A stretch of DNA of 19,344 bases from the NCBI GenBank assembly GCA_021849435.1, contig JAJZSX010000008.1:1-19344 (forward strand), given 5' to 3'. Of the stretch, positions 3,212 to 16,993 are shown piece by piece; the first letter of the stretch is position 1; the number at the start of each line of letters is the position of its first letter. Position numbers and translations under genes: made by a program. The notes beneath the pieces were generated by a model, which was given only the letters and a program-made list of their open reading frames with translations, made no database searches and was not told where the DNA came from. Origin of the DNA: Actinomycetes bacterium (GTDB taxonomy: Bacteria > Actinomycetota > Acidimicrobiia > Acidimicrobiales > RAAP-2).

Positions 3212-3373
3212 CTACCGGCTCGCGCGACGCCCCCGGCTCACCACCAGCCACAGAATCCCCAGGATGACCGCGACGACCACGACTTTCATGATGAGTGCGA
3301 TCGCCGACGCGATGAGCGAGCCGAGAATCACCACTGCGAGCACCGCTAACGCGATCACCAAACCCGTTTTCAT
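3212..3373 (-). CDS. Small hydrophobic membrane protein, 53 aa
   Basis: This short frame starts at an ATG at 3373, with GAGAGG about seven bases upstream, and stops at TAG. The product starts MKTGLVIALAVLAVVILGS and has one hydrophobic stretch at about 4-28, a single Lys at 30, a second stretch at about 31-46 and a basic tail SRGRRASR. This predicts two short membrane helices with the positive tail in the cytoplasm. I do not recognise the family. It lies 76 bases after dinB and 13 before tRNA-Cys, all on one strand, so it may be the last protein gene of the SOS cluster or have its own promoter in the gap. The clean hydrophobic pattern and ribosome site support coding, but the short length limits certainty. 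Confidence 0.6.
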   Translation of the reverse strand: MKTGLVIALAVLAVVILGSLIASAIALIMKVVVVAVILGILWLVVSRGRRASR

Positions 3374-3449
3374 TGCCCGCCTCTCAATCGGTCGACCGTT
3401 GACCTCCGACGTAACCTACCGCGCCACGAGGTGCCGTCGACCGTCAGCG

Positions 3450-4793
3450 TCACGGCGAGTTCGGTGACGAGTCGGGGCCAAAGGCGTGGCGACCCCGCTG
3501 GGTCGCCACGTGCAATCCTTCCTCGTCGAGCTCGGCGACGGTCCCCAACGCCGATCGGCCGAAGCGCTGACGCACCTCGTCGATCGCGTCGCGCAGGCCT
3601 TCGAAGTCGATCTGGCGCGCCCGCGACGCCTGTTCGGCTCCCTCGCGGGTGTCCGAGGACTCGACCGCAACTGGCAGGGTGAGTTGGATCTCGTGGGCGC
3701 TGCGTTCGATGAAGGATGAAGCGTAGAGCCCCACCAATCGCACCGACTGGTTGAGCTCGATTGTCTCGGCGAGCGCCGCGCCGATCATCGCGATGGCCCC
3801 GTCGTCGTCGACGCCAAAGGAGAGGGTCTGCGAGCGCGACACGGAGCGCAGGTCGTCGAAGCGCACCACGAGGGTGATGGTTCGTGCGAGCTGGTGGCTC
3901 GCACGCAGTGCCCGCGCTACCACCGCCGCGTGCGCGCGTGCCGCGCTCTGGACCTCACGGACGTTTCGCAAGGACCGCGCGAATGTTTCGTCGTGGCCGA
4001 GCGACTTCGCGCCCCGGTCGACGACGACCTCGCGCCGGTCGTCGCCACGAGCGTAGGCCACCAGCGTGGCCGCCATCGCCGGCCCGACGTGGACCGCGAG
4101 CGTCGCCTCCTCAAGCGGCGCGAGGTCGCGCACCCAGCGCAGACCGAGTCGGTTGAGCTTGGCGGTGGTGGCCGGTCCCACACCCCAGAGCGCCCCGACC
4201 GGCAGCTCGGCCAGCCACCGCTGCTCGGTCGCTCGGTCGACCCAGACGACCCCAGCTCCCGGCGTGATGCGCCCGCCCACCACGGCGGGCTTGGACCGCT
4301 TCGAGGCCAGCTTCGCAAAGAGCTTGTTGCGCGCGAGTCCGACACCGCAGTTGAGGTGCAGCTCGTCCTCGATGCGCCCACGCAGCGCCCACGCGGCATC
4401 CACGGGTCGAGTCCCCAGTCGCCGCAACCCGCGCAGGTCGGCGAACAACTCGTCGAGTCCGATGGCCTCGACCGTCGGCGTGAGGTCGGTGACGATCTCG
4501 CGGAAGCGTCGCGAGTACTCCTCGTACCGGTCGAAGCGACCCGGCAGGATCACGAGGTCCGGGCAGCGCCGTCGTGCCAGAACACTCGGCATCCCACTTC
4601 GAACTCCAAATCGCCGCGCCTCGTAGCTGGCGCTCGCAATCACACCGCGTTCGCCACCACCCCCGACCGCGATCGCCCGCCCCGCGAGAGACGGGTCGTC
4701 GAGGATCTCCACCGACGCGAAGAAGGCGTCGAGGTCGACGTGCAGAACGGGCGCTTCGTCGACCGTCGGCTGGTCAGCTGGTGAGCTGGACAC
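3450..4793 (-). CDS. dinB: DNA polymerase IV (Y-family translesion polymerase)
   Basis: DinB copies past damaged template bases with low fidelity. The 447-aa product has the Y-family palm motif VLHVDLDAFFASVE near the N terminus (metal-binding Asp20) and the second acidic pair at Asp114-Glu115 in AIGLDELFADL, a variant of the usual SxDEAxLD. GVGLARNKLFAKLASKRSKP and the helix-hairpin-helix stretch LWGVGPATTAKLNRLGLRWVRDLA follow, then the little-finger domain. Retention of the acidic residues argues for an active polymerase rather than the inactive ImuB type. The frame is open further upstream, but those codons overlap the deacetylase gene. The GTG at 4793, with GAGG about nine bases before it, removes the implausible Arg/Ser-rich extension. 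This start overlaps the upstream gene by 20 bp, suggesting translational coupling. SOS control is inferred from the double LexA operator at the head of the cluster. Confidence 0.93.
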   Translation of the reverse strand: MSSSPADQPTVDEAPVLHVDLDAFFASVEILDDPSLAGRAIAVGGGGERGVIASASYEARRFGVRSGMPSVLARRRCPDLVILPGRFDRYEEYSRRFREIVTDLTPTVEAIGLDELFADLRGLRRLGTRPVDAAWALRGRIEDELHLNCGVGLARNKLFAKLASKRSKPAVVGGRITPGAGVVWVDRATEQRWLAELPVGALWGVGPATTAKLNRLGLRWVRDLAPLEEATLAVHVGPAMAATLVAYARGDDRREVVVDRGAKSLGHDETFARSLRNVREVQSAARAHAAVVARALRASHQLARTITLVVRFDDLRSVSRSQTLSFGVDDDGAIAMIGAALAETIELNQSVRLVGLYASSFIERSAHEIQLTLPVAVESSDTREGAEQASRARQIDFEGLRDAIDEVRQRFGRSALGTVAELDEEGLHVATQRGRHAFGPDSSPNSP

Positions 4794-5481
4794 TGCGAAA
4801 CGCCTCGCCGTAAGCGACGCCGACCGGTCGGCCCGCCTGCTCCGCCCGACCGTAGACGACCTCGCGGATCTCCGCGGCGTCCCCACCGAGCTGGGAGGCG
4901 TGCGCGAGCACCGCCGCGGCCTTGCGGTCGATCGTGCGCGAGATGTCAACGACAACATCCGGCTCCTGGGTGCCGCTCAACAGCAGGTGACGCACCTGGT
5001 GCGCCGCACCGTACTCGGGGAAGTAGAGCGGCATCGCGGCGGCCGGGGCCACGGCGTCGAGCAGCGCCCAGCCCGTCTCACGATGGTCGTGATGGTTGAT
5101 GTAGACACCCGCGAAGAAGGTGGCGGTCGGGTCGTGACCGACGACGACGTCGGGTCGAAGCGACCGGATGAGTCCCACCAACTCACCGCGCAGGACGGCG
5201 TCGTTCACGACGTCGCCGTCGGGGTGGTCGAGACCCACGACGGACTCCACGCCCAAGAGCGCCGCGGCTGACTCGAACTCCGAGCGCCGAACGCCCCGCA
5301 GTGACTTAGCGTCGGTCTGGCCAGAGTGCGAACCCTTCGAACCGTCACAGACGACCACCATGTGAACGGCGCAACCCTCGCTCGCCCACTGGGCGAGCAC
5401 CCCACCGGCCGCGACGTCGGCGTCATCGGGGTGGGCGTAGACCGCGAGTGCGCTCTGGGGTTGTAGGCGCAAGTTGCGCAT
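4774..5481 (-). CDS. PIG-L/LmbE family zinc-dependent deacetylase
   Basis: The PIG-L family hydrolyses N-acetyl groups on sugar amines or amide bonds of sugar-thiol conjugates, as in MshB and Mca of the mycothiol pathway. The 235-aa product has the zinc motif AHPDD at 16-20, a GSKGS loop at about 47-51 and the second metal motif HHDH at 130-133. It is shorter than typical MshB or Mca (near 290-300 aa), so neither name is justified. The chosen ATG at 5481 is one base after the nrdR stop and has GGAG seven bases upstream; an open extension to 5628 only repeats nrdR in another frame. No signal peptide is seen, so it is cytoplasmic. It sits between nrdR and dinB, overlapping dinB by 20 bp, so it should be expressed with SOS genes. 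The substrate is unknown; a thiol conjugate or cell-wall sugar is possible. Confidence 0.88.
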   Translation of the reverse strand: MRNLRLQPQSALAVYAHPDDADVAAGGVLAQWASEGCAVHMVVVCDGSKGSHSGQTDAKSLRGVRRSEFESAAALLGVESVVGLDHPDGDVVNDAVLRGELVGLIRSLRPDVVVGHDPTATFFAGVYINHHDHRETGWALLDAVAPAAAMPLYFPEYGAAHQVRHLLLSGTQEPDVVVDISRTIDRKAAAVLAHASQLGGDAAEIREVVYGRAEQAGRPVGVAYGEAFRSVQLTS

Positions 5482-5482
5482 G

Positions 5483-5953
5483 TCAGCTCCGCAGTTTTGG
5501 CGCGGTCGACTTGACGAGCATTCCAATCTCGCGCGCGAAGTCCTCGGTGCCCTCAAAGCCCTTGTAGACCGACGCGAAACGAACGTAGGCGACGTCGTCA
5601 ACGGGTCGGATCGCGTCGAGGGTGGCACGTCCGATCTCCTCGCTCGACACGTCGCGGTTCAAGAGGCGCATCGACTCCTCGACGCTCGCGGCGATCCCCA
5701 CCATGACGCGCTCGTCGACCGGCCGGTTCTTGCACGCGGCCCGGATTCCCATAAGGATCTTGGACTGATCGAAGGGCTCGCGTTCCCCGGAACGTTTGAC
5801 GACGACGAAGCCGACCTCCTCGATCCGCTCAAACGTCGTGTAGCGCTGGCCGCACCCCGCGCACTCGCGGCGACGGCGAATCGCCACCCCGTCTTCGGCC
5901 AGGCGCGAATCGACGACACGGTCGTCGTCAGCCGAGCAGAAGGGGCATCGCAT
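5483..5953 (-). CDS. nrdR: Transcriptional repressor NrdR
   Basis: NrdR represses ribonucleotide reductase genes when its ATP-cone domain senses (d)ATP. The 156-aa product has a zinc ribbon (CPFC at 3-6 and CAGC at 31-34) with the Arg-rich DNA-binding segment RRRREC between them, followed by TTFER and an ATP-cone at about residues 48-138 (VVVKRSGEREPFDQSKI). The length is normal for the family. I chose the ATG giving MRCPFC, the usual NrdR N terminus; a GTG three codons earlier is possible. It follows the LysM gene by 31 bases. In mycobacteria and corynebacteria nrdR also sits beside the LysM division suppressor and lexA. I found no convincing NrdR box in the window, and no ribonucleotide reductase gene is present. 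Confidence 0.95.
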   Translation of the reverse strand: MRCPFCSADDDRVVDSRLAEDGVAIRRRRECAGCGQRYTTFERIEEVGFVVVKRSGEREPFDQSKILMGIRAACKNRPVDERVMVGIAASVEESMRLLNRDVSSEEIGRATLDAIRPVDDVAYVRFASVYKGFEGTEDFAREIGMLVKSTAPKLRS

Positions 5954-5984
5954 CTCCGCCACGATACACGCAAAATTCGACAAA

Positions 5985-6410
5985 TTATGGTATAAGGACG
6001 TGCTCACCCGGGACCACCACATTCGAGTGCAGCTCCCTGACGAGCGCGCGACGAGCCAGCGCGGGATCGAGCGGATTGGCGAGCCGCGCTATCGAGTCAA
6101 CAGTGTCGCCTGCCTGGACGACGTAGACCATGCCCGAGGCGAGCGACGTGCCCGTCGCCAGGTCGGTGGGCAGGCCCGTGCCCGTCGTGCCGCCAAAGGC
6201 GGGGCCGGGCCACGCGAGCAGTACTAGTCCGACCGCTATCGCGACGCCGAGCAGCACACCCTGACGCTGGCGACGCCGACGAGCCCGCGCGAGGCGGCGA
6301 CTCGTGACGTTGACGCCCGTGCGCCACGCAACGTTCGTCTCAGAGACGAGCCGCAGACGGGGGGTGACGGGTGGACGGAACTCGTACTCCGTCAATGCGA
6401 CTGCGGACAC
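5985..6410 (-). CDS. LysM membrane protein, probable SOS cell-division suppressor (DivS/ChiZ-like)
   Basis: The 141-aa product has a basic N-terminal cytoplasmic part (RRLARARRRRQRQ at about 38-50), one membrane helix at about 51-72, a short Gly/Thr linker, and a single LysM domain at about 95-141 (YVVQAGDTVDSIARLANP...VVVPGEHVLIP). LysM binds peptidoglycan, so the domain should face the wall. The architecture and position match YneA, DivS and ChiZ, SOS-induced proteins that delay division; DivS and ChiZ also neighbour lexA and nrdR. The start is GTG with GGAGG five bases upstream. Two LexA boxes lie within 55 bases upstream and surround its promoter. No hydrolase domain is seen, so a division-blocking role is inferred from context rather than motifs. 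LysM proteins of other function remain possible. Confidence 0.85.
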   Translation of the reverse strand: MSAVALTEYEFRPPVTPRLRLVSETNVAWRTGVNVTSRRLARARRRRQRQGVLLGVAIAVGLVLLAWPGPAFGGTTGTGLPTDLATGTSLASGMVYVVQAGDTVDSIARLANPLDPALARRALVRELHSNVVVPGEHVLIP

Positions 6411-6423
6411 CGTTGCCTCCTTC

Positions 6424-6467
6424 TAGACGAACACCTGTTCGTATACTAGCGAACAGGTGTTCGTCTA
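6424..6467. promoter_or_regulatory. Double LexA operator as an 18-bp perfect inverted repeat
   Basis: Two 14-bp LexA boxes, CGAACACCTGTTCG (6428-6441) and CGAACAGGTGTTCG (6450-6463), are exact reverse complements. The symmetry extends four bases further out on each side, so TAGACGAACACCTGTTCG (6424-6441) mirrors 6450-6467 with an 8-bp centre. The box centres are 22 bp apart, about two helical turns, so two LexA dimers would lie on the same face. The form matches the actinobacterial/Bacillus SOS consensus CGAACnnnnGTTCG and the boxes at lexA in this window. Confidence 0.95.
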
Positions 6468-6471
6468 ACAA
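6443..6471 (-). promoter_or_regulatory. Promoter of the LysM-nrdR-deacetylase-dinB cluster
   Basis: On the minus strand TTGTTA (6471-6466) and TAGTAT (6448-6443) are separated by exactly 17 bases, a good housekeeping-sigma promoter. One LexA box fills the spacer and the other covers the expected start of transcription, so bound LexA should block the polymerase completely. Confidence 0.75.
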
Positions 6472-6479
6472 GGGCCCGG

Positions 6480-7847
6480 TTACCAACCGGCTGATCGCCC
6501 CGCTTCACCAGCACTTTCCCTGATGGCGCGGCCGACGCGGCCGAAGTCACCCCACGGGCGACGTCGCCGACCCGTACGCAGCGCGTCAGCCACCTCGTCC
6601 AGGGTGCGCACCATGACGATGCGATGCGACCGCACCAGTTGGGCGCACTCGCGCGCGAGCTCGACGTCGGGGTGATCGGCCGAGTCGGTGACCTGACCAT
6701 CGCTCACCCACACGATCGGCTCCCCGGTCCTGCGGTGGGCGATCGCCCAACGAAGGACCGGCCCGTCAACGCCATTGCCGACGTTGCCGCTCGGTACCTC
6801 GCACACGACGCCACCACGGTCGGCGAGCACCCACGCGTTCGGCGTCGTGCCGCGGTCGCCCGGCCGGTGGCTGTAGCCGACGACGAGTGAATCGGGGGCA
6901 CGTCGAGCGAGTGCAGCGAGCGTCTCGCGCTCGAGGTCCATCGAACCGGACTGGTCGATCACCACCACGCCACCGTGTCGACGCGACGACGCGGCAAAGG
7001 CCCGACGCTGCTCGTCAGTGAGCAAGCGGCCGGGATAGGCGAGGACGACGCCACTGACCGCCGCTCGGCGGTGGCGCACGCCGCTCGTTCGTGCCCGAAC
7101 CGCCAGGGACGACTCGGCGAAGTACAGGTCGGCGAAGTGCCCACTCGGTGGTCGCCGGGCGCCGGGCTGAAGGGAGCGCTTGAAACGGCGAAGCGACTCC
7201 GCGTCGCTAGGTAACCGGACGTCACTGACCGATGTCACCAGTCGAGCCAAGGGGATCGTGTACTCGCCGTAACCCAGCGGCACCCCGTCGACACGGGCCA
7301 CTGTCGCGCCCAACTCGTCGGCGCTGGCGTCGCGCACGAGCGACTTCGCGCGCGAGCCGACGGCCCGAAGCGGCGCCACCCACGTCGGATTACCCCGACG
7401 TATCCCGGCCACGAACTCGCGTTCGGCGCCCGTGCCGAGGACCGCCAGCAGGAAGCTCGCGGCCTCGGGCCAGTTGCCGCTACGCGCGAGGCGCTCACCC
7501 CCCAGGCGCTCACTCCCGTCGCGCAGCTGACCGGCGTCAAAGCCCAGTCGCAGGAGGATCGTGTTCACGCGCATCTCCTCCGCGCACTCCAGGGCGCGCG
7601 ACGGGAGATCCGCCACCTGGTCGAACCACTCGTGACGGTGCGGGCTCACGCGCACGTGAATCAGCTCATGAACCCGCACGACGCGCGCACGCTCGTCGCG
7701 CTCCCACGGTACGCGCAGCACGCGACGACCGAGGTCGCAACTCGCATCCCCGCGCCACGACGATCCTCGCTCGATGTGCCACGGCTCGCTCGGGAAACCG
7801 TCGGCACGACCGGTCACCAGTTCAGGGAAGACGTCGACGTCGCTCAC
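6480..7847 (-). CDS. HExxH metallopeptidase-like protein with C-terminal VWA domain
   Basis: The 455-aa product combines two parts. The N-terminal part carries VHELIHVRVSPHRH with HELIH at about 60-64, and an ALECAEEMRVN helix at about 86-95 that could give a third zinc ligand. The C-terminal part from about residue 290 is a von Willebrand A-like domain with VVVIDQSGSM (metal-site DxSxS at about 297-301) and WVSDG near 380. This arrangement resembles the COG3864 type (putative metallopeptidase plus DUF2201-like VWA), which usually pairs with a MoxR ATPase. Here the ATPase lies directly upstream and overlaps by 4 bp (GTGA), so the two are translationally coupled. No signal peptide or membrane helix is seen. 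Substrate and proteolytic activity are unknown. It ends 12 bases before the SOS operator but is read from its own upstream unit, so it is not obviously SOS controlled. Confidence 0.8.
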   Translation of the reverse strand: MSDVDVFPELVTGRADGFPSEPWHIERGSSWRGDASCDLGRRVLRVPWERDERARVVRVHELIHVRVSPHRHEWFDQVADLPSRALECAEEMRVNTILLRLGFDAGQLRDGSERLGGERLARSGNWPEAASFLLAVLGTGAEREFVAGIRRGNPTWVAPLRAVGSRAKSLVRDASADELGATVARVDGVPLGYGEYTIPLARLVTSVSDVRLPSDAESLRRFKRSLQPGARRPPSGHFADLYFAESSLAVRARTSGVRHRRAAVSGVVLAYPGRLLTDEQRRAFAASSRRHGGVVVIDQSGSMDLERETLAALARRAPDSLVVGYSHRPGDRGTTPNAWVLADRGGVVCEVPSGNVGNGVDGPVLRWAIAHRRTGEPIVWVSDGQVTDSADHPDVELARECAQLVRSHRIVMVRTLDEVADALRTGRRRRPWGDFGRVGRAIRESAGEAGRSAGW

Positions 7848-8572
7848 AGCGCCGCGACCCGCAGGGCGTCGAGCACACCGCCGGCCTTGGCGTCGCCGAA
7901 GACCAAGTCGGCGGCCCGAGATGCGCCGTAGTGGCGTCGTAGTTGGTCGAACGCGTAGAAGCTGCGCAGCGATATCCGACGTGACTCGTCGCCGAGCGAA
8001 CCCGCGAGTGCCGGTCCTCGAAGGTCCTCACTCAGGCTCTCGACGGCGTTGAGGTGCGGACGGTCGACACGTAGACGCACCGCGAATCGATCGCGCAAGG
8101 CGGCGGGCAGCTCTTCGAGGTCCTCGACGTTGGTCGTCATGACGACCGAGAACTCGGGACCCGGCGTCACCCACTCCCCCGTCTCGGGATTGCGCCACCG
8201 CGCGGAGTCCGCCGAGTCAGTGATCGCGAGCAACGTGCTCAAGGCGTCGCCCGAGGCTCGGTCGACCTCGTCGATCACCAGCCGGCCGCCACGGCCACCG
8301 TGGGCGCTCCAGGCGCGGATCGCCGGCCCCTCACGCCAGCGCCACCTCCCGTCGCCCGCCGGCATCCAGGTCCCGGTGATCTCACCGGTCGTCAGGTCCT
8401 CGGTGCACACCAACCGCTCGGCGGGTCCGTGCGCGACGCCGGCGTGCAACGCCGCGTAGGTCTTTCCCGTCCCCGGGGGACCGTACAACACCACCCGGTC
8501 GATCCCCGCCGCCAGCACGTCGGCTACGTCACGCCAGCATTGGCCCAACTCTCGCTGTTCTTCGATGATCAT
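7844..8572 (-). CDS. MoxR-type AAA+ ATPase
   Basis: MoxR ATPases act as chaperone-like remodelling machines, typically with a VWA partner protein. The 242-aa product has Walker A GPPGTGKT at 31-38, Walker B LVIDEVDRA at 98-106, sensor-1 Asn148 in TTNVED and an Arg-finger region ALRDRF at about 158-163. It is shorter than many MoxR proteins (about 300-330 aa), with a reduced C-terminal lid. The start is an ATG at 8572 with AAGG/GGAG just upstream; a TTG eight codons earlier is less likely. It overlaps the HExxH/VWA gene by 4 bp and follows the marR stop by 45 bases. The pair most likely forms one complex, in which the ATPase drives the VWA partner. Whether it shares a transcript with the exporter-marR pair is uncertain. 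Confidence 0.9.
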   Translation of the reverse strand: MIIEEQRELGQCWRDVADVLAAGIDRVVLYGPPGTGKTYAALHAGVAHGPAERLVCTEDLTTGEITGTWMPAGDGRWRWREGPAIRAWSAHGGRGGRLVIDEVDRASGDALSTLLAITDSADSARWRNPETGEWVTPGPEFSVVMTTNVEDLEELPAALRDRFAVRLRVDRPHLNAVESLSEDLRGPALAGSLGDESRRISLRSFYAFDQLRRHYGASRAADLVFGDAKAGGVLDALRVAAL

Positions 8573-8617
8573 TTCTCCACCTTTCCGACGACCCAACGGT
8601 CGGCGCAGGTGGCGCGA

Positions 8618-9064
8618 TCACTGTGAACAATCGTGCGAGATCTTCTCCAGGACCGGCAGCGCCCGTTCCAGGAGCCGGCGCTCCGACTCACTCAGGGCAT
8701 CGAGCTGGGCGCCAAGGCCCGTGGCACGCTCCTTGCGCAGCACTTTGAGCGTCTCGCCGCCCACCTCGGTCAGAGAGATCAGCGACGCTCGCTTGTCGTC
8801 GGGGTCCGACGAGCGCGTGACGAGACCCGCCTCCTCAAGTGAGGCCACGACCCTCGTCGCGGCGGGCGCCCCCAAGGACTCCTGGGACGCGAGCGCGCTG
8901 ATGCGCAACGGTCCGCGCTCGTCCACAGTGACTAGCGCCGAGAGCTGGGAGGGGGTCAGCCCGGCCGCAGCGTGCTGGCGAATCGTACGCATCAGTCGAC
9001 CGACGATCAGATTCAGCCTGGCCGCGACCGTGACGCCGTCTTCGTCGCCGGTGAGCGGTTTCAT
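8618..9064 (-). CDS. MarR-family transcriptional regulator
   Basis: The 148-aa product is a winged-helix MarR protein: recognition region [24 protein letters not shown]...[15 protein letters not shown] at about residues 36-83, wing [15 protein letters not shown] at about 84-98, and dimer helices at both ends. MarR proteins usually bind short palindromes as dimers and release them on binding phenolic or drug ligands. Its ATG overlaps the exporter stop by 4 bp (ATGA), so it is translated with the exporter and probably represses that operon through the palindrome at 10848-10865. The ligand is unknown. Confidence 0.93.
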
Positions 9065-10821
9065 CGCACGACGTCACTCTCGAGGGCGACCTCACCGGGC
9101 ACAGCGCCGCCGGCGATCGTCAGGTCCTCCACGTGCTGCTGGATTGACAGTTCCGAGTGGACGTAGCGACGGCCGCGCAGCGCGGAGAAAATCGCACCGA
9201 TGATGGCCATCGCAAACGCCATGGTGAAGACGATGATCAGCCCGTGGTGGAATGGCGAGAGGATGAGGTTCGGGAAGAAGTGCTTGCCCGTCAGGGTCAC
9301 CCACTGGGCGCTCGACACGTGCGCGACCGACTGGCTACCCAGCAGACTCTTGAGCGGGTTGAAGCCGAGGAACGACGAGAAGAGGCTGCCGACCGCGGGC
9401 AGGTTCGCCACAGCGTGGGCCTGGGCTGCGGCGACGCCGTGCGCAGACAGACCCTTGTACATAGCTGACGGCAGCGTGTTGGTGAGCCCCACGATCATCA
9501 GCGAGAAGAACACCCCGATGGATAGCACCATGCCCGAGTTCATGAACGCTGCCTGGATGCCCGCCGCGCCACCACGTTCATTGGCCGCCACGCTGTTCAT
9601 GATCGCCGTCGAGTTAGGCGCCGAGAACATCCCGCCGCCTAAACCGTTCAGCGCCACGAGCAACGCGAAGTCCAGGTAGTGGAAGTTCGTGGGGAGCATC
9701 AGGAGCCCAATGAAGCTGAAGGCGAAGAGCAGCAGACCCGTCGTGGACAGGATCCGAGCCCCGTGACGGTCCGAGAGATAGCCCGAAACGGGTCCGGCGA
9801 CGAGGAAGCCGAGAGTCAGGGGCAGCAGGTAGATGCCCGCCCATAGCGGCGTCGAGGCGTAGCTGTAGCCGTGCAGCGGCAGCCAGATCCCCTGGAGCCA
9901 GATGATCAGCATGAACTGCAAACCCCCTCGGGCTATCGCCGAGAGCAGTCCGGCGACGCTCCCGGTGAAGAACGCCCGGATCTTGAACAGCCGGAGGTTG
10001 AACATCGGCGACTCGACACGCGTCTCGATGACGAGGAAGACGGCGAGGAAGAGCACGCCGACAATGAACGCGGCCAGCACCCGCGGCGAGGTCCACCCCA
10101 TGGAGCTCGTACCGTATGGCTGGATGCCGTAGACGATCGCCGCGAGCAGTGAGGTCAGACCAATGGCGAACGTGGCGTTACCCCACCAGTCGATCGTGGC
10201 GTTCGCCCGCTCACCGTTGTCGCGAAGACTCACGTAGCCCCAGATCGTGCCGAAGATGCCCACCGGTACCGAGACCCAGAAGACGAGTCGCCAGTCGCCA
10301 ATCGATAGCAGGCCACCGAGGATGAGGCCAACGAACGAGCCACCGATCGCCGCCACCTGGTTGATTCCCATCGCGAAACCCCGCTGGTCCGGCGGGAATG
10401 CGTCCACGATGATCGCACTCGAGTTGGCGAACAACATGGCGCCGCCGACCCCTTGCACGAGTCGCCACATCACGAGCCACATGGCGCCGGCACCGTGGCT
10501 GAACGGGTCCAGTGCGAGCAGGATTGAGGCGACCGAGAACACCGCGAAGCCCAGGTTGTAGATCCGTACTCGTCCCTTTATGTCGCCGAGTCGTCCGAGG
10601 CTGATCACCAGCACGGCCGTGACCAGGAGATAACCCTGAAGGAGCCACAAGAGGTAGCCGACGTTGCCCGGTGACAACGGGTTAATACCGACGCCGCGGA
10701 AGATCGCCGGTAGCGAGATCAAGATGATCGAACCGTTGATCGTGGCCATGAAGATCCCCAACGTGGTGTTGGTAAGCGCGATCCACTTGTAGCGTTCCGG
10801 GTGAGCGTGCTTGAGAGCCAT
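9061..10821 (-). CDS. MFS exporter, DHA2 (EmrB/QacA) 14-TM type
   Basis: Members of this family expel drugs and other hydrophobic compounds by proton antiport. The 586-aa product is strongly hydrophobic with about 14 membrane helices. Motif A reads [15 protein letters not shown] after the second helix, and an antiporter-type motif C ([29 protein letters not shown]) is present. A long extracytoplasmic loop occurs around residues 455-520, and the C-terminal tail is cytoplasmic. The ATG at 10821 is preferred; a TTG four codons upstream is possible and neither has a strong ribosome site. The coupled marR gene and the upstream palindrome indicate ligand-inducible expression. The substrate cannot be read from sequence. 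Confidence 0.92.
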
Positions 10822-10843
10822 CAACGGGTCCAATCGCGATTAG

Positions 10844-10869
10844 ATAGTTACTTGTTGACAAGTAAGTAT
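10844..10869. promoter_or_regulatory. Palindromic MarR-type operator of the exporter-marR operon
   Basis: TTACTTGT-TG-ACAAGTAA (10848-10865) is a perfect 8+8 palindrome, and the symmetry continues as ATA/TAT after one mismatch on each side, covering 26 bp. It lies 23 bases before the exporter ATG. On the minus strand a TATACT (-10-like) lies at the outer edge, so the palindrome would cover the transcription start. Length, AT-rich centre and position suit a MarR dimer. Confidence 0.8.
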
Positions 10870-11021
10870 ATTCGCGGCCGGGCCCCTCGTGTCGGTTCTA
10901 CGCGTGTTCCATTCCCGAAGATGTCACGAGACGCGGCGAGACCGGTCGCGAGATACCGCGATGACCTTCGGGTCCTCGTCGCACGGGCCCACCATGCTCG
11001 CCAGGCCCGGCGGGCCGCGGC
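10870..11021. other. Intergenic gap with an extended imperfect hairpin
   Basis: The stretch lies between the exporter promoter and the end of livF. It holds an interrupted stem from 10914 to 10972: CCCGAAG pairs with CTTCGGG, GTCA with TGAC, and GCGG (10933-10936) with CCGC (10956-10959). There is no T-tract, so it is not a standard intrinsic terminator for livF. No coding frame with recognisable features is seen. Confidence 0.4.
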
Positions 11022-11735
11022 CTAGGACTCGACGTTCTCGCCGAGGTAGACCGCCCGGACCCGTGCGTCGGTCAGCAGGTTCGACGCGATGTCCCCGAAC
11101 ACAATCTTGCCGTTCTCCATCACGTAGCCGCGGTCGGCCAGTCGCAGCGCCTGGGAGGCGTTCTGCTCGACCACCAACACGGTCGTACCGCTGTCGCGGA
11201 TCTCACCGATGATTCGAAAGATCGTGTCGACGATCATCGGCGCGAGCCCCATCGACGGCTCGTCGAGCAGCAGCAATCGGGGCTGGCCCATCAGCGCCCG
11301 CCCGATGGCCAGCATCTGCTGCTCACCGCCCGACAAGTTGCCGCCTATCTGCTTGCGACGCTCTTTCAAGATGGGGAACGTCTCGTACATCCGTTCCATA
11401 TCGTCGGTGTAGGAACCACGCCGTCTGAAGGCGCCGATCTCCAGATTCTCCTCGACGGTCATCTGCGGAAAGATTCGCCGGCCCTCGGGGACGTGGCCGA
11501 TACCAAGGGTCGTGAACATGTGAGCCTTGGTGGTGGTGACGTCCTGCCCCTCGAACATGATCCGGCCGCTTTGGGGCGCGTGCAGACCAGACAGCATCCG
11601 GAGCGTCGTCGTCTTGCCCGCCCCGTTGGCGCCGAGCAACGTCACGATCTCGCCCTGGTTTACTTCGAAGGAAATACCGTGTAACGCAGTGATCGCGCCG
11701 TAGCGAACCACCGCATCGTGTACCTCGAGCATCAC
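11022..11735 (-). CDS. livF: Branched-chain amino acid ABC transporter ATPase LivF
   Basis: LivF is one of two cytoplasmic ATPases that drive the branched-chain amino acid-type importer. The 237-aa product has Walker A GANGAGKT near residue 35, signature LSGGEQQ, Walker B LLLLDEPSMGL and the LivF-typical switch region LVVEQNASQAL, where Gln replaces the usual His. The length is normal. The ATG overlaps the livG stop by 4 bp. It is the last gene of the operon. No convincing terminator follows, only weak GC-rich hairpins. Confidence 0.95.
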   Translation of the reverse strand: MMLEVHDAVVRYGAITALHGISFEVNQGEIVTLLGANGAGKTTTLRMLSGLHAPQSGRIMFEGQDVTTTKAHMFTTLGIGHVPEGRRIFPQMTVEENLEIGAFRRRGSYTDDMERMYETFPILKERRKQIGGNLSGGEQQMLAIGRALMGQPRLLLLDEPSMGLAPMIVDTIFRIIGEIRDSGTTVLVVEQNASQALRLADRGYVMENGKIVFGDIASNLLTDARVRAVYLGENVES

Positions 11736-12538
11736 GATCGGTCCCCCGTCTCAGTCGCGGTCGAACCGAGATAGGCCTCGATGACCTTGTCGTTCGCCCG
11801 GATCTCTTCCGGAGTGCCCTGGGCGATGACGCTACCGAAGTTGAGCACGTAGAGCCGCTCGGCGAGTGACATCACGAGCTTCATGTCGTGTTCGATCAAC
11901 AGGATCGAGACGCCCATCTCATCGCGAACCTTGCGAATCAGCTTCGTCAACTCGAGTTTCTCCGACGGATTGGTCCCGGCGGCGGGCTCATCGAGCAGGA
12001 GCACTTGCGGTCCCGTCGCCAGCCCGCGGGCGATCTCCAGGCGCCGACGATCCCCGTAGGACAGCGACGAGGAGATCACGTTCGCCTTGGCTCGCAGCCC
12101 CACGAAGTCCAGGAGCTCTACCGTGCGATCATCTGAGAGCTTCTCGTCACGCCGGGTGGCGGGTCCGCGCAACATCGCGCCTACCACGCCGATCCCGCGA
12201 TGTGACTCTGCGCCGATCTTGATGTTTTCAAAGGCCGTCAAGGCGCTGAACATCCGAGACGCCTGGAACGTCCGGGCAACACCAGCCGCGCTCACGCGGT
12301 GAGGCTTCTTGCCAATGACGTTCATGGGCTTGGCGTCTTTCCCCTGAAAGGTGATGGTCCCCTCCTGGGGCTGATAGACGCCCGTCAGGGAGTTGAACAG
12401 CGAGGTCTTGCCGGCACCGTTCGGGCCGATGACCGCCAGGATCTCACCACGCTCTTGGTGCAGTGTCACGTCGTTCAGGGAGACCACGCCACCAAAACGA
12501 AGTGTCACGTGGCCAACGTCGAAGATATTGTCGCTCAC
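11732..12538 (-). CDS. livG: Branched-chain amino acid ABC transporter ATPase LivG
   Basis: This is the second ATPase of the importer and pairs with LivF. The 268-aa product has Walker A GPNGAGKT, a variant signature LSYGDRR typical of LivG, Walker B LLLDEPAAG, and the H-loop LLIEHDM. The C-terminal segment FGSVIAQGTPEEIRANDKVIEAYLG is characteristic of LivG. The start is GTG at 12538, overlapping the livM stop by 4 bp (GTGA), so the proteins are translated together. Confidence 0.95.
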   Translation of the reverse strand: MSDNIFDVGHVTLRFGGVVSLNDVTLHQERGEILAVIGPNGAGKTSLFNSLTGVYQPQEGTITFQGKDAKPMNVIGKKPHRVSAAGVARTFQASRMFSALTAFENIKIGAESHRGIGVVGAMLRGPATRRDEKLSDDRTVELLDFVGLRAKANVISSSLSYGDRRRLEIARGLATGPQVLLLDEPAAGTNPSEKLELTKLIRKVRDEMGVSILLIEHDMKLVMSLAERLYVLNFGSVIAQGTPEEIRANDKVIEAYLGSTATETGDRS

Positions 12539-13878
12539 GGCGTGTCTCCCGTCAATACTTCGTTCATATGGCCCTCGCCCTGCTCGGCGAGCCCGATCTC
12601 GCGGTGACGTCGACGCGACGGAACGAGACCCGCCGGACGGAAGATCATCATCACGACAAGCAACGCGCCCAGGTAGATGTAGAGGTCCTGTGGCTGGTAC
12701 CCCGCAGGCGGCGAGTGCAGCAGGAACATCGAGCCGGTCTGGATGACGATCGCACCGAGCACCACGCCGGTGATCGAGCCCATGCCACCGAAAATCACCA
12801 GCACGAGGATGTTGATCGAGAACTGCAGCGTGAAGCTCGACGGGAAGATGGTGTTCGATTGGCTCGCGGTCACGACACCGGCGAAGCCCGCGGTGGATGC
12901 TCCGATTGCGAACGCCATGACCTTGTACTTGAGCGGGTTGATGCCCACCGATTCTGCGGCGACCTCGTCCTCGCGGATGGCGGTCCAGGCACGGCCGACC
13001 CGCGAATGCTCCAGCAGTTTGAACCCGATCAGGAACAGGATGACGAATACGATCGTCAAGTAGTAATAGGGCACCGGCGTGAGACCCCAGAGGTACTTGA
13101 TGGGGCCCACGTGCAGCGAGAAGTGCGGAATCGTATTGGTGCCCTGCGAGCCACCCGTGATGCCATACAGGTTGTTGGCAAAGATGGTGATGATCTCACC
13201 GAAGCCCAACGTCACGATGGCCAAGTAGTCACCGCGGAGCCGCAGGGTCGGCGCCCCAAGGATGATGCCGGCGCCCATCGCGAGCGCGATCGCGATGGGA
13301 ATCGCGTAAAAGTTGTTGAAGTGGATGCCGAACGGTGCCGCCGTCGGCAGCGCTCCGGTGACCCATGCCGTCGTATACGCACCAATCGCGTAGAACGCCA
13401 CGAACCCCAGGTCCAGCAGACCCGCGAAGCCGACCACCACATTGAGACCGAGTGCGAGCAACACGTAGACCGCGATCTGTTCGACCATGGCGGCCTGCCA
13501 GAACGGGTCAGTGATGAGCCGTGGCAGCAACAGTGCGACCACGAGGAGGACGAGAATCATCCCCCAGCGAACTGGGCGCGTGTGCGTGGCGGCCCGAGGA
13601 ACGCTCATGGCCTTCGACGCCGCGGTCCGAACCTGTTCGCCCCACGTGAGCCACGTCGTCCAAATCGCGAACATGACCAGCGCTATAAAGAGGAAAACCA
13701 CCCATCGCTGTGTCCGAAAGAGTCCAAAGAACGACGAGGCCTCGCCGAAGGAGCCGGTGAAACCCGCCGTCGGGGAAAGAGCGCTGCCCGGGGGCCCAGT
13801 CATCAACTCGAGCACCGCCATGGCTGCAATCGCAGAGAACAGCCGCTTCACGTGCGCATTGGCAAAGAAGCGCTTCAC
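12535..13878 (-). CDS. livM: Branched-chain amino acid ABC transporter permease LivM
   Basis: LivM forms the membrane channel with LivH. The 447-aa product has the LivM core from about residue 150 (QIAVYVLLALGLNVVVGFAGLLDLGFVAFYAIGAYTTAW). Further helices and the cytoplasmic EAA-like coupling segment (HSRVGRAWTAIREDEVAAESVGINPLKYK at about 290-320) follow. The first 140 residues are an N-terminal extension with extra membrane helices, making it similar in length to the longer LivM form. The ATG overlaps the livH stop by 4 bp. Confidence 0.95.
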   Translation of the reverse strand: MKRFFANAHVKRLFSAIAAMAVLELMTGPPGSALSPTAGFTGSFGEASSFFGLFRTQRWVVFLFIALVMFAIWTTWLTWGEQVRTAASKAMSVPRAATHTRPVRWGMILVLLVVALLLPRLITDPFWQAAMVEQIAVYVLLALGLNVVVGFAGLLDLGFVAFYAIGAYTTAWVTGALPTAAPFGIHFNNFYAIPIAIALAMGAGIILGAPTLRLRGDYLAIVTLGFGEIITIFANNLYGITGGSQGTNTIPHFSLHVGPIKYLWGLTPVPYYYLTIVFVILFLIGFKLLEHSRVGRAWTAIREDEVAAESVGINPLKYKVMAFAIGASTAGFAGVVTASQSNTIFPSSFTLQFSINILVLVIFGGMGSITGVVLGAIVIQTGSMFLLHSPPAGYQPQDLYIYLGALLVVMMIFRPAGLVPSRRRHREIGLAEQGEGHMNEVLTGDTP

Positions 13879-14837
13879 GCCGACCTCCCCAGCCGCTCAC
13901 CGAGGATGCCGGTCGGACGGAAGAGCAATACCGCCACCAAGATCCCGAAGGCCACCACGTCCATGTAGGCGGCCTGTACGAAGACAACCGAGAGACTCTC
14001 GACGACGCCGAGCAGAAATCCGCCGATCATCGCGCCGCGCAGGTTCCCGATACCACCCAGCACGGCGGCGGTGAATGCCTTCAGGGCTGGAACGAATCCC
14101 ATCGTGTTCGATACACCGGTGCCCATGCCGAAGAGGAATCCGGCCGCGCCGCCGAGTGCTCCGCCGACGATGAAGGTGAGCACGATCGTTCGGTCGATGT
14201 TGACACCCATCAGCGACGCGGTCTCGGCGTCCTGGGCGACCGCCCGGATGCTGCGACCGAGCTTGGTCTTAGCCACAATCCGGTCCAGCGTGAGGAACAT
14301 GACCGCACCAGCGAGGAGGATGATGACGTAGTACATCTGGACCGGGGCGCCGAAGATGTGGAAGATCGGGTGGTTGATGTAGGGCTGGGGCATCGAGATC
14401 GGCACCCGGCCGAACTCCTTGCCCGCCATGTTGTAGAGGAAGTAGGACGCACCGATTGCGCTAATCAGATACGCGAGGGCGGGCGCTCGTCGTCGCCGCA
14501 ACGGCCGGTACGCGACCCGTTCGACGAGCGTGGCCATTACTGCACCGACGATGCCTCCAACGACGATCCCGAGCACGATGAGTCCGACCGACGCGATGCC
14601 CGACGGGACCGCGGTGCCCACCAACGACTTCATCACGAAGTAGCCGGCGAACCCGCCCGACATGAAAATCTCCGAGTGGGCGAAGTTGATGAGGCGAAGA
14701 ACGCCGTAGACGAGCGTGTAGCCGACCGCCACCATGCCGTAGAGAACACCATTGGCGAGGCCGCCCACGAACAGCGCCCAGAACTCAAGACGAAGCGTGG
14801 CGAAGTGCCCCGTGAGATAGTGCCCGAATGCTCCCAA
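13875..14837 (-). CDS. livH: Branched-chain amino acid ABC transporter permease LivH
   Basis: LivH is the partner permease of LivM. The 320-aa product begins with a short hydrophilic part, then the family pattern GGLANGVLYGMVAVGYTLVYGVLRLINFAHSEIFMSGGFAGYF. The cytoplasmic coupling region is TKLGRSIRAVAQDAETASLMGVNIDRTI at about 193-220. About eight membrane helices are expected. It follows livK by 92 bases that contain a strong hairpin, so it probably receives only part of the livK transcription. The start is ATG at 14837. Confidence 0.95.
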   Translation of the reverse strand: MGAFGHYLTGHFATLRLEFWALFVGGLANGVLYGMVAVGYTLVYGVLRLINFAHSEIFMSGGFAGYFVMKSLVGTAVPSGIASVGLIVLGIVVGGIVGAVMATLVERVAYRPLRRRRAPALAYLISAIGASYFLYNMAGKEFGRVPISMPQPYINHPIFHIFGAPVQMYYVIILLAGAVMFLTLDRIVAKTKLGRSIRAVAQDAETASLMGVNIDRTIVLTFIVGGALGGAAGFLFGMGTGVSNTMGFVPALKAFTAAVLGGIGNLRGAMIGGFLLGVVESLSVVFVQAAYMDVVAFGILVAVLLFRPTGILGERLGRSA

Positions 14838-14877
14838 CAGTGCCCCCTAGAACGGTCCGACGAAAGTGTAATCAAAT

Positions 14878-14912
14878 ACGGAAGGGCCGGGGGAAACCCC
14901 CGGCCCTTCCGT
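14878..14912 (-). terminator. 16-bp perfect hairpin between livK and livH
   Basis: Bases 14878-14893 pair perfectly with 14897-14912 around a 3-nt loop, forming a GC-rich 16-bp stem starting ACGGAAGGGCC. It begins 17 bases after the livK stop. On the minus strand it is followed by TATTTGATTAC, a poor T-tract. It most likely ends part of the transcripts or protects the 3' end of livK mRNA, so binding protein would be made in excess over the permeases. Confidence 0.8.
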
Positions 14913-14929
14913 TCAAACAACTTCAGTGA

Positions 14930-16111
14930 CTACTCAAGACCGATCTGAACGATCTTTCCGTTCTTGACCTGGTTCACGTAGATCGCCGAACCCGCGATGT
15001 TGCCATTGGGCTGGAAGCGAATCACCTTGGTCATACCCTTCATGACCAGCTTGTGCAACTGCGCAACGATGCCCGCGCGGGTGATCTTCTTCAACTTCTT
15101 CATCGCCGCGATGATCGCGTTCGTCGCGTCGTAGGACTCGGGCGCGTAGGTCGCGTTGGCGGCGCTGAAGTGCGCCAGGGCCTGGTACTTACGGTTGAAC
15201 ACCTTGCTCGTTGAGCTCGAGCACGCGCACGTCAGGTAGACGCCGTTTGCGGCCGACGCGGGCGTCGTGTTCTGAATCAACGCCGGTGACAGTGCACCGT
15301 CGTCGGACATCACGATGCCCGTGTACCCGGCCGACTGCAGCTGGCCGAGGAACAGACCGAGGTCGCAGTAGTAGCCGCCGTAGAACATGGCGTCAGCACC
15401 GCTCGCCACGACCTGTGCCGCCGCCGAGGTGTACTCGGTCGAAGACGCAGTACCGTTCTGGCACTGTGAGGTACCAGGAACAGTCGCCGGGGTCACCGTC
15501 GCGCCGTCCTTGGTCGCCTGTGACGCGAAGGCCGAAGCCACGCCCGAACCGTAGGCCGTACCGTCGTTGACGACGTAGACCTTGGTCTTCTTCAGCTTCT
15601 TGACCACGTAGTTAGCGTCAGCCGGTCCCTGGACGTTGTCGTCAGCAACCACGCGGAAGAAGTTGTTCCAGTGGTTGGTCGCCAACTTCGGGTTCGTCGC
15701 CGAAGGACTCACGGTCGCCAGGTGGGCCTTGTGGTAGAACGGCTCAGAAGCTGCCGTCGCACCCGAGAACGCCGGTCCAACGACTGCAACCAGGTTCTTG
15801 TTCGCGATAGCGGCTTGCGCCTGGGTTGGTGCGATGGTCGGGTCGCCTTGGTCGTCATAGGTCGCAATCTTCAACTTGAAGGGAAGCTTGCCTGACGCGT
15901 TCGCCTGGTTGATCGCCAGCTGGACCGCGAACACCATGTTCAACCCGAGCTGCTGGTTCCCACCCGAGAGCGGTCCTTGATATCCAATGACGTAGGTCGG
16001 CTTGCCCGCAGCCCCCGAGGTTGACGCGATGCCGACAGCCGGCACCGCCATCAACAGCAGGGCACTGGTCGTAACCGCCGCCACCGTCTTGTTCAAACGA
16101 GGCTTAATCAA
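14930..16111 (-). CDS. livK: Branched-chain amino acid ABC transporter substrate-binding protein
   Basis: This is the extracytoplasmic receptor (LivJ/LivK, periplasmic-binding type I fold) of the importer. The 393-aa product has a signal peptide MIKPRLNKTVAAVTTSALLL...AVGIAS, then YVIGYQGPLSGGNQQLGLNM, typical of the family. VAVVGPAFSGATAASEP and a C-terminal RFQPNGN follow. The TTG at 16111 is the preferred start because GAGGAGG stands just upstream and it places the basic n-region directly before the hydrophobic core; an in-frame extension to 16261 lacks any sense as a protein. No lipobox Cys is visible near the signal cleavage region, although Gram-positive binding proteins are usually lipid anchored. 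The ligand may be Leu/Ile/Val, another amino acid or an amide, since the family is broad. Confidence 0.9.
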   Translation of the reverse strand: MIKPRLNKTVAAVTTSALLLMAVPAVGIASTSGAAGKPTYVIGYQGPLSGGNQQLGLNMVFAVQLAINQANASGKLPFKLKIATYDDQGDPTIAPTQAQAAIANKNLVAVVGPAFSGATAASEPFYHKAHLATVSPSATNPKLATNHWNNFFRVVADDNVQGPADANYVVKKLKKTKVYVVNDGTAYGSGVASAFASQATKDGATVTPATVPGTSQCQNGTASSTEYTSAAAQVVASGADAMFYGGYYCDLGLFLGQLQSAGYTGIVMSDDGALSPALIQNTTPASAANGVYLTCACSSSTSKVFNRKYQALAHFSAANATYAPESYDATNAIIAAMKKLKKITRAGIVAQLHKLVMKGMTKVIRFQPNGNIAGSAIYVNQVKNGKIVQIGLE

Positions 16112-16297
16112 CTCGTCCTCCTCAACTGTGTAATAACTCCCCCAGGCGCACGGGTGTGTCGCATACTGGACACCCCCGAGCCACCCCAGCGGATTCGTAC
16201 TGGCCACCTTGGCCATCGCAGCACAGTAGCAGTACGAAGGAATGTGTATTGGGTCATCCAACTACCGTTCGACCCAAATAACGTGACCTGCGTCTTA
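16112..16297 (-). promoter_or_regulatory. livK upstream region with inverted repeats
   Basis: TTGGGTC (16249-16255) and GACCCAA (16271-16277) form an inverted repeat with centres 22 bp apart, fitting one dimer site across two helical turns. Nearer the gene, GGGTGT (16152-16157) and ACACCC (16170-16175) could form a leader hairpin. I could not identify a confident -35/-10 pair. The LexA box at 16298-16311 lies at the far edge, but its alignment fits the lexA promoter better. Confidence 0.35.
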
Positions 16298-16311
16298 CGA
16301 ACAGGTGTTTG
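16298..16311. promoter_or_regulatory. LexA box, distal, at lexA
   Basis: CGAACAGGTGTTTG differs from the perfect SOS palindrome by one base in the right half. It overlaps the -35 element of the lexA promoter. Its centre is 41 bp from that of the proximal box, about four helical turns, so both dimers would face the same side. Confidence 0.85.
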
Positions 16312-16338: not shown

Positions 16339-16352
16339 CGAACAGTTGTTCG
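16339..16352. promoter_or_regulatory. LexA box, proximal, at lexA
   Basis: CGAACAGTTGTTCG matches the consensus CGAACnnnnGTTCG exactly and lies 17 bases before the lexA ATG, directly downstream of the -10 element. Confidence 0.93.
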
Positions 16353-16369: not shown

Positions 16370-16993
16370 ATGGCTGAGGTCCTCACCCCCATGCGCCGTC
16401 AGATCCTCGAGTTCATCATCGCCTGTCAGCGCGAACGGAACTTCCCTCCCACGATCCGAGAAATCGGCGACCACGTGGGGTTGAAGTCACCCGCAACGGT
16501 CGCGAACCACATCACAGTGCTGCGCGACGCGGGTTATATCGCGAAGAATCCCCAGCAACCCCGGACGCTGACGGTGCGCCTGGACGCTGATTCGATGGCG
16601 CCAGACGCTTCCGTGCGAAGCATTCCCTTCGTCGGCGACGTGGCTGCCGGAACCGGCGTGCTCGCCACCGAGAGTCTCCACGAGATGATGACCGTGCCCT
16701 CGCAACTCGCCGGACGGGGCGACAGCTTCGTCCTCCAGGTTCGAGGCGAGTCGATGATCGGCGCGGGGATCATGCCCGGCGACCTGCTCGTCGTGAATCG
16801 CCAGGCCACCGCCGAGACCGGTGAAATCGTGGTCGCCGGGTTGCCCGAAGGCGAGGCAACGGTCAAGCGCTTCTTCCCCCAAGGTGCCCGCGTCGTGTTG
16901 AAGCCAGAAAATCCGTCGATGGAACCGATGGAATTCGACTCGGCTGACGTGGCGATATTCGGTCGTGTGATTGCCGTCATGCGTGCCTATTAA
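16370..16993 (+). CDS. lexA: SOS repressor LexA
   Basis: LexA represses DNA-damage genes and cleaves itself when stimulated by RecA filaments. The 207-aa product has an N-terminal winged helix at about 5-70 (FPPTIREIGDHVGLKSPATVANHITVL) and a C-terminal S24 peptidase domain. The self-cleavage site is Ala93-Gly94 in GDVAAGTGVLA, the catalytic Ser128 lies in RGESMI and Lys166 in EATVKRFF, so the repressor should be fully cleavable. The ATG at 16370 has AGGAG five bases upstream; an earlier in-frame start would begin inside the proximal LexA box and is rejected. The gene is about 10 kb from the LysM-nrdR cluster, whereas mycobacteria and corynebacteria keep these genes adjacent. Two LexA boxes indicate self-control. 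Confidence 0.97.
   Translation: MAEVLTPMRRQILEFIIACQRERNFPPTIREIGDHVGLKSPATVANHITVLRDAGYIAKNPQQPRTLTVRLDADSMAPDASVRSIPFVGDVAAGTGVLATESLHEMMTVPSQLAGRGDSFVLQVRGESMIGAGIMPGDLLVVNRQATAETGEIVVAGLPEGEATVKRFFPQGARVVLKPENPSMEPMEFDSADVAIFGRVIAVMRAY

Follow-up and report, generated by a model that had tools for sequence, protein, structure and literature searches.

DivS, ChiZ and YneA are division inhibitors that are induced by DNA damage, and for DivS and YneA the gene of the SOS repressor, lexA, lies close by (available excerpts of PMC3989709). In the nrdRJ operon of Streptomyces coelicolor, nrdR, which encodes the ribonucleotide reductase repressor, owns a promoter with NrdR boxes (available excerpts of PMC9110341). 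Here we describe a damage-response locus in a 19,344-nucleotide stretch of an Actinomycetes bacterium from the class Acidimicrobiia (contig JAJZSX010000008.1 of assembly GCA_021849435.1; the whole stretch is called the window below). Four open reading frames (ORFs) on the minus strand, spanning positions 3450-6410, follow each other in the order of a small LysM-type membrane protein similar to DivS, ChiZ and YneA (5985-6410, GTG start), nrdR (5483-5953), a PIG-L/LmbE-family deacetylase (4774-5481) and dinB, encoding a Y-family DNA polymerase (Pol IV; 3450-4793, GTG start). The LysM gene and nrdR are separated by 31 nt and nrdR and PIG-L by 1 nt, and PIG-L and dinB overlap by 20 nt, in agreement with an earlier note on this DNA that had proposed a LexA-controlled operon of these four genes. 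We consider it rather probable that the actinobacterial lexA-divS/chiZ-nrdR locus was remodelled in this lineage and now contains two nested promoters.

The gene order, together with a pair of LexA boxes upstream of the LysM gene, was found in 31 loci, the window and 30 relatives, which we refer to as operon loci. In a NrdR search of GTDB contigs, from which the best 80 loci were kept, the 20 loci with the highest NrdR identity (54-81%; L001-L019 and L036) were examined, and 19 of them have the full order with the box pair, the exception being L019; the LysM gene of L017 was missed by tblastn and recovered with a profile. For a class-wide sample 148 genomes were drawn, of which 123 have NrdR and 110 gave a neighbourhood (L001 comes from genome G001, which was counted once); of the 13 neighbourhoods left out, 12 belong to small genomes of 0.8-1.1 Mb, and in the remaining one the match sits at the end of a contig. 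The operon occurs in 12 of the 110, some of the loci possibly being close relatives, so that the search for this gene order in related Acidimicrobiia, which the earlier note had suggested, found it to recur in a lineage-specific manner. Among the 98 non-operon neighbourhoods, lexA is encoded on the opposite strand no more than 2.6 kb away in 93, at least 67 have a LysM gene (an undercount, as the profile was built from the operon clade) and 74 have a box pair in which neither box has more than one mismatch. These counts suggest that lexA-LysM-nrdR is the common arrangement of the class, the core that the earlier note had described as known, and that PIG-L and dinB are an addition. In the operon neighbourhoods of the class sample lexA lies within 2.6 kb in 2 of 12, and it is immediately divergent in 7 of the 31 operon loci. 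The lexA gene of the window is about 10 kb away (16370-16993, plus strand; TIGR00498, 183.2 bits, cut-off 110.95), and is preceded on the same strand by a perfect LexA box (16339-16352) and by another with one mismatch (16298-16311).

The spacing within the operon is well preserved. The gap between the LysM gene and nrdR measures 28-57 nt in 28 of the 31 loci (93 nt in L018, not resolved in L007 and L012), and the distance from nrdR to PIG-L ranges from -4 to +3 nt in 30 (L018 has 18 nt), with NrdR identity to the window falling to 59%, or 54% in L203 and L206. In a phylogeny of LexA and NrdR from 115 loci (15 small-genome loci were left out of 130), the operon loci fall inside a group of 35 rows with support 96; in a second tree of 92 loci, from which L164, L174, L190 and 20 far rows had been removed, the 31 operon loci form one side of a branch with a value of 97 in the Shimodaira-Hasegawa-like approximate likelihood ratio test. 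The arrangement is real, inherited and specific to one lineage, and most simply has one origin.

The putative promoter of the LysM gene, P1, consists of a -35 hexamer TTGTTA (6466-6471) and a -10 hexamer TAGTAT (6443-6448), 17 nt apart on the minus strand. The distal LexA box (6450-6463) lies within the spacer just downstream of the -35 hexamer, and the proximal box (6428-6441) lies across the predicted transcription start; both are perfect matches to CGAACN4GTTCG. A Shine-Dalgarno sequence, AAGGAGG, follows at 6416-6422. The earlier note had placed one promoter between its two LexA boxes. Both boxes and the position of the -10 hexamer between them were confirmed, but the -35 hexamer precedes the distal box, and the predicted start lies under the proximal one. 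In all 31 operon loci the LysM gene is preceded by a box pair, neither box having more than one mismatch; both boxes are perfect in 29, and the start-to-start spacing of the pair is 22-33 nt. In 29 loci a TTG precedes the distal box by no more than 9 nt, and a -10 element (TANNNT between the boxes, at a spacing of 16-18 nt) was recognized in 23 and was not detected in the remaining eight (L011, L013, L015-L018, L196 and L199). First-order Markov simulations of the same composition, in which 0.06 perfect boxes are expected per window and a pair within 36 nt arose in 0 of 300 runs, reject a chance origin. The boxes overlie P1 and match the form of those at the organism's own lexA.

Five genomes of the clade contain 7-16 perfect LexA boxes each, versus 0-3 for a reversed control pattern. 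Twenty boxed loci of the clade were fetched, and five proteins beside the boxes were confirmed with Pfam, namely RecA, RuvC, SRAP, a UvrD helicase and a PHP-domain protein; other boxes have no clear SOS gene adjoining. We take the PHP-domain protein to be DnaE2; it is the one member of its cassette with a Pfam match, and the cassette presumably corresponds to the genes named imuA', imuB and dnaE2. The occurrence of the motif near recA, ruvC, SRAP, uvrD and this imu/dnaE2-type cassette makes it an SOS signature in the clade. The box at the cassette also means that dinB is not the sole candidate for an SOS-controlled translesion gene.

All four genes had been placed behind one promoter in the earlier note; this part of the proposal is not supported by the sequence. 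A second candidate promoter, P2, is indicated by a leaderless-type -10 element, TATCGT (5961-5966, minus strand), 7 nt 5' of the nrdR ATG. All 31 operon loci have a TANNNT motif that ends 6-7 nt 5' of the nrdR start, compared with a mean of 2.4 and a maximum of 7 of 31 after shuffling, 72 of 934 background ORF starts, one PIG-L start and no LysM start. Within 5-8 nt of the nrdR start it is also present in 56 of 66 non-operon loci and in three of six intermediates (for these counts the nrdR start was located by motif in 103 of 130 loci and the other 27 were dropped). Sites resembling a Shine-Dalgarno sequence were found in the 31 operon loci at 21 LysM genes, five PIG-L genes and a single nrdR. 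The first T of P2 is 12-13 nt 5' of the nrdR start, which matches the place of published leaderless signals; leaderless genes are common in actinobacteria, with the signal about 12 bp before the start (available parts of PMC3160421 and PMC3898074). The P2 region is without a LexA box. Just upstream of the P2 -10 element, two of the 31 loci (L203 and L206) carry a perfect NrdR-type palindrome that ends 20 nt before nrdR, and none of 515 shuffles did better than two mismatches; the window has no such palindrome at up to two mismatches. The position of the palindrome in the gap between the LysM gene and nrdR suggests that NrdR may regulate its own expression from P2. Terminators or separate promoters inside the unit had been named in the earlier note as evidence that would speak against it. 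The conserved TANNNT and the genes found behind nrdR in relatives (see below) point to a separate promoter before nrdR, and no terminator-like site was detected at 3300-6700.

The place behind nrdR that PIG-L and dinB occupy in the operon clade is often taken by a ribonucleotide reductase gene (nrdJ) in relatives. Of 78 non-operon loci, 40 have such a gene no more than 3 kb behind nrdR, and in 11 the available sequence is too short to tell. Two of six loci with PIG-L further off have it as well, whereas none of the 31 operon loci does, one of them being too short to judge. A reductase gene in this position could hardly rely on an SOS promoter alone. PF02867 ribonucleotide reductases are present in 13 of 13 genomes searched, as a single match in 12 and as two adjacent pieces in G061; the search missed Corynebacterium glutamicum among others in its control set, and further reductases may exist. 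Those tested from G008, a member of the operon clade, and from G016, which lacks the operon, both score over the cut-off as class II, B12-dependent enzymes. A perfect CCACWASATVTWGTGG palindrome occurs in 11 of 13 reductase loci (the exceptions are L306, where the match is partial, and L307, which is only a short piece) and stands upstream of nrdJ in 10 of the 11 with the start region shown (not in L299), a count that is not independent because the consensus was built from the same loci. We read the palindrome as a NrdR box and thus as a candidate site in the relatives; the window has no reductase gene. Its paired layout agrees with published NrdR boxes (as far as the available excerpts of PMC9110341 describe them).

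In at least 20 non-operon genomes of the class, PIG-L and dinB share a strand and are separated by 0.85-2.1 kb. A NUDIX gene stands just upstream of dinB in 18 of 20 such blocks (not in L220 and L225), and is absent from the operon loci. The 3 kb upstream of dinB were free of perfect LexA boxes in all 34 non-operon dinB loci examined, namely the 20 blocks and 14 further loci (three have less than 3 kb of upstream sequence; four other fetched loci are without dinB), and the idea that dinB is an SOS gene throughout the class was therefore rejected. In genome G092, a stretch of about 11 kb contains nrdR, PIG-L and dinB together with a threonine-aldolase-like gene, all in the same orientation. G092 falls outside the operon clade in both LexA and NrdR trees, and its layout plausibly represents a precursor state. 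In L220-L239, from other Acidimicrobiia, the succession PIG-L, NUDIX, dinB and then DUF3040 is recurrent, and the genes upstream include a TesB thioesterase, a phosphofructokinase and a threonine-aldolase-like gene; family searches confirmed these names for L234 and L221 only.

The functions of the four proteins in this host are predicted from families, motifs and models; for PIG-L and dinB the longest forms of the ORFs were used in the family scans. NrdR scores 157.8 bits with TIGR00244 (cut-off 124.65), matches NrdR sequences in the PDB and has the ATP-cone and the Zn-ribbon cysteines, the latter invariant in the 31 loci. DinB matches the Pfam IMS family (1.6e-45) and, among ten listed NCBIfam models, passes the cut-off of one, NF002677 (263 against 256); its catalytic residues D45, D47, D139 and E140 (alignment numbering) are likewise invariant. 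The LysM protein has the features of DivS, ChiZ and YneA: it is short, has one transmembrane segment and a C-terminal LysM domain (weak in the window), and its gene has SOS boxes and lies beside nrdR. The LysM domain gave no match at E <= 0.001 in the window protein and an E-value of 0.033 in a second search; of 41 aligned relatives, 36 show the domain at E <= 1, the best value being 9.9e-05. The AlphaFold2 model shows a helix at residues 35-66 and a C-terminal strand-helix-helix-strand arrangement, with a mean predicted local distance difference test score (pLDDT) of 71.5 and a predicted template modelling score of 0.37. By analogy with YneA and ChiZ the protein may act as a division suppressor. 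In YneA the transmembrane segment reportedly binds FtsW and the LysM domain blocks septal wall synthesis (available excerpts of PMC13396833); the LysM domain of ChiZ is reportedly dispensable (available excerpts of PMC3989709).

The deacetylase matches PF02585 (1.3e-25) and has an AlphaFold2 model with a pLDDT of 91.0. Its zinc motifs, HPDD and HxDH, are invariant in the 31 loci. The best PDB sequence, 3wl4, is labelled uncharacterized (6.5e-25), and the next is a diacetylchitobiose deacetylase (1.9e-23). The protein stays under every listed NCBIfam cut-off, including those for BshB1 (94.6 of 182.5 bits), BshB2 (64.4 of 195.25), MshB (44.5 of 224.35) and Mca (45.0 of 277.15), and in 13 of 13 genomes searched there are MshB-family paralogues that outscore it and are also below the cut-off. 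An identity with the mycothiol enzymes MshB or Mca was rejected on these scores and paralogues, and by its profile scores PIG-L fits none of the thiol-pathway deacetylase families. MshC-family matches below the cut-off occur in all 13 genomes as well; they do not establish mycothiol synthesis, since all 14 control genomes match too.

The locus is probably not one simple damage-controlled unit. Considering only packing and boxes, one could assume a single LexA-controlled operon with one promoter that joins division arrest, control of the deoxyribonucleoside triphosphate (dNTP) supply, deacetylation and translesion synthesis; the four genes are co-directional and tight, the box pair is conserved and no terminator-like site interrupts them. 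However, the invariable TANNNT before nrdR, the near absence of Shine-Dalgarno-like sites there, the palindrome at the P2 site of two loci and the reductase genes behind nrdR in non-operon loci all argue against this assumption, and we regard it as very unlikely. A possible, if doubtful, alternative is that two separate units touch each other, P1 serving the LysM gene only and P2 serving nrdR, PIG-L and dinB without a meaningful SOS effect. A long message may indeed be poorly translated given so few Shine-Dalgarno-like sites at nrdR and PIG-L, and dinB has no LexA box elsewhere; but the units would adjoin without a detectable terminator and, in most loci, across a gap of a few dozen nucleotides. 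It is similarly questionable whether PIG-L and dinB are passengers, brought behind nrdR when compaction removed the genes between old neighbouring blocks, with no regulatory benefit, an explanation that is compatible with the other models. Gene loss within a layout like that of G092 would yield the operon; however, the close spacing of nrdR and PIG-L has been kept down to the lowest NrdR identities in the clade.

Several observations also weigh against the remodelled locus with two nested promoters that we prefer. A generic sigma70 consensus scan of both strands at 3300-6700 gave no site at 9 of 12 positions or better and missed P1 and P2 alike; by manual count P1 of the window matches the consensus at 8 of 12. 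P2 is a short motif at a fixed spacing, a predicted and not a mapped start. Because nrdR has no Shine-Dalgarno sequence, it may be translated poorly from the long P1 message, and the contribution of read-through may be small. In 27 of the 78 non-operon loci the sequence is sufficient and no reductase gene lies behind nrdR, so that the ancestral state is not certain. The group of 35 rows in the larger LexA and NrdR tree also takes in four long-branched non-operon rows (L019, L134, L135 and L215), the DinB tree groups the operon rows only at a support of 79, and in the PIG-L tree they do not form one group, a single group not being rejected by the approximately unbiased test (p = 0.247).

In the remodelled locus, P1 would be a sigma70-type promoter whose spacer and start lie under two LexA boxes. 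When RecA triggers the cleavage of LexA, P1 would be turned on and the LysM-domain division suppressor made, and the transcript would read on into nrdR, PIG-L and dinB, no terminator having been detected. The leaderless-type P2, free of LexA, would give a basal and tightly coupled expression of the last three genes. The clade would have lost the linkage of nrdR and nrdJ, and PIG-L and dinB, elsewhere a block of their own, usually with a NUDIX gene and without LexA boxes, would have joined behind nrdR; the direction of this exchange we infer from the distribution among relatives. The net effect would be a basal supply of NrdR, deacetylase and Pol IV that is raised under DNA damage during the division block. 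The activity of P1 and P2, the read-through and the translation of the read-through message are what we infer from these signals, and a damage induction of PIG-L and dinB is plausible.

A further proposal, that PIG-L is a true SOS effector and that arrest, dNTP control and translesion synthesis are coupled to the deacetylation of a cell-wall sugar or a damage-related metabolite, appears unlikely to us. Under this proposal, locus L258 of genome G072, where two LexA boxes (one perfect, one with one mismatch) and lexA (TIGR00498 over the cut-off) are directly followed by PIG-L, might represent a second lineage that brought PIG-L behind a LexA-box promoter by another route. A DUF3040-like ORF follows PIG-L in L258, and G072 has no nrdR match at E <= 1e-20. 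If the remodelling with two nested promoters is correct, the locus illustrates how a damage-response locus may grow, a gene pair free of LexA boxes having been added after an SOS gene, at a place often held by nrdJ in relatives, and how an internal promoter would preserve basal expression in a locus that has grown in this way. It would also be a case of dinB under possible LexA read-through in a class where the other dinB loci examined have no LexA box, and it draws attention to a PIG-L deacetylase, so far uncharacterised, that may have a role in DNA damage.

Immediately upstream of the box pair, the minus strand of the window encodes an AAA ATPase (Pfam AAA_5) and an ORF that we read as its VWA-type partner (6480-8596). 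The VWA-type ORF (6480-7847) has no family match in the window and is present in 19 of the 31 operon loci; in several it sits between lexA and the LysM gene, as if inserted into a divergent lexA-LysM pair. A perfect LexA box inside this ORF (7412-7425) was rejected as a functional site; the VWA matches in the relatives examined have no perfect box, so the box is probably due to chance. Between the AAA/VWA pair and lexA (8618-16261) lie a MarR-type regulator, an MFS exporter and a set of branched-chain amino-acid ABC transporter genes.

Compared with the lexA/divS-chiZ (Rv2719c)/nrdR locus, and with Bacillus yneA next to lexA, the window clade shares the SOS-box promoter and the small LysM-type suppressor with one transmembrane segment. 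As in the former locus, nrdR stands beside the suppressor, an adjacency that also occurs in Mycobacterium. Unlike that locus, the clade has PIG-L and dinB after nrdR, and lexA is distant in the window. The earlier note had thought the two genes unusual in such a unit. They are a conserved addition, and searches of the open-licence PMC literature found no paper that joins nrdR, LexA, LysM and dinB, or PIG-L, the SOS response and LexA, which is weak evidence of absence. The nrdRJ operon of S. coelicolor resembles the non-operon relatives with a reductase gene behind nrdR, the place where the operon clade has PIG-L and dinB. The imuA'-imuB-dnaE2 cassette likewise consists of LexA-controlled translesion genes, and a LexA box precedes such a cassette in genomes of the clade; in contrast to it, DinB of the window is a Pol IV with intact catalytic residues, encoded behind a division suppressor and nrdR. 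Diacetylchitobiose deacetylase, MshB/Mca and BshB have the HPDD and HxDH motifs in common with the PIG-L protein of the window. The lexA-divS/chiZ-nrdR core is thus known from other actinobacteria, whereas the PIG-L-dinB pair behind nrdR appears to be new.

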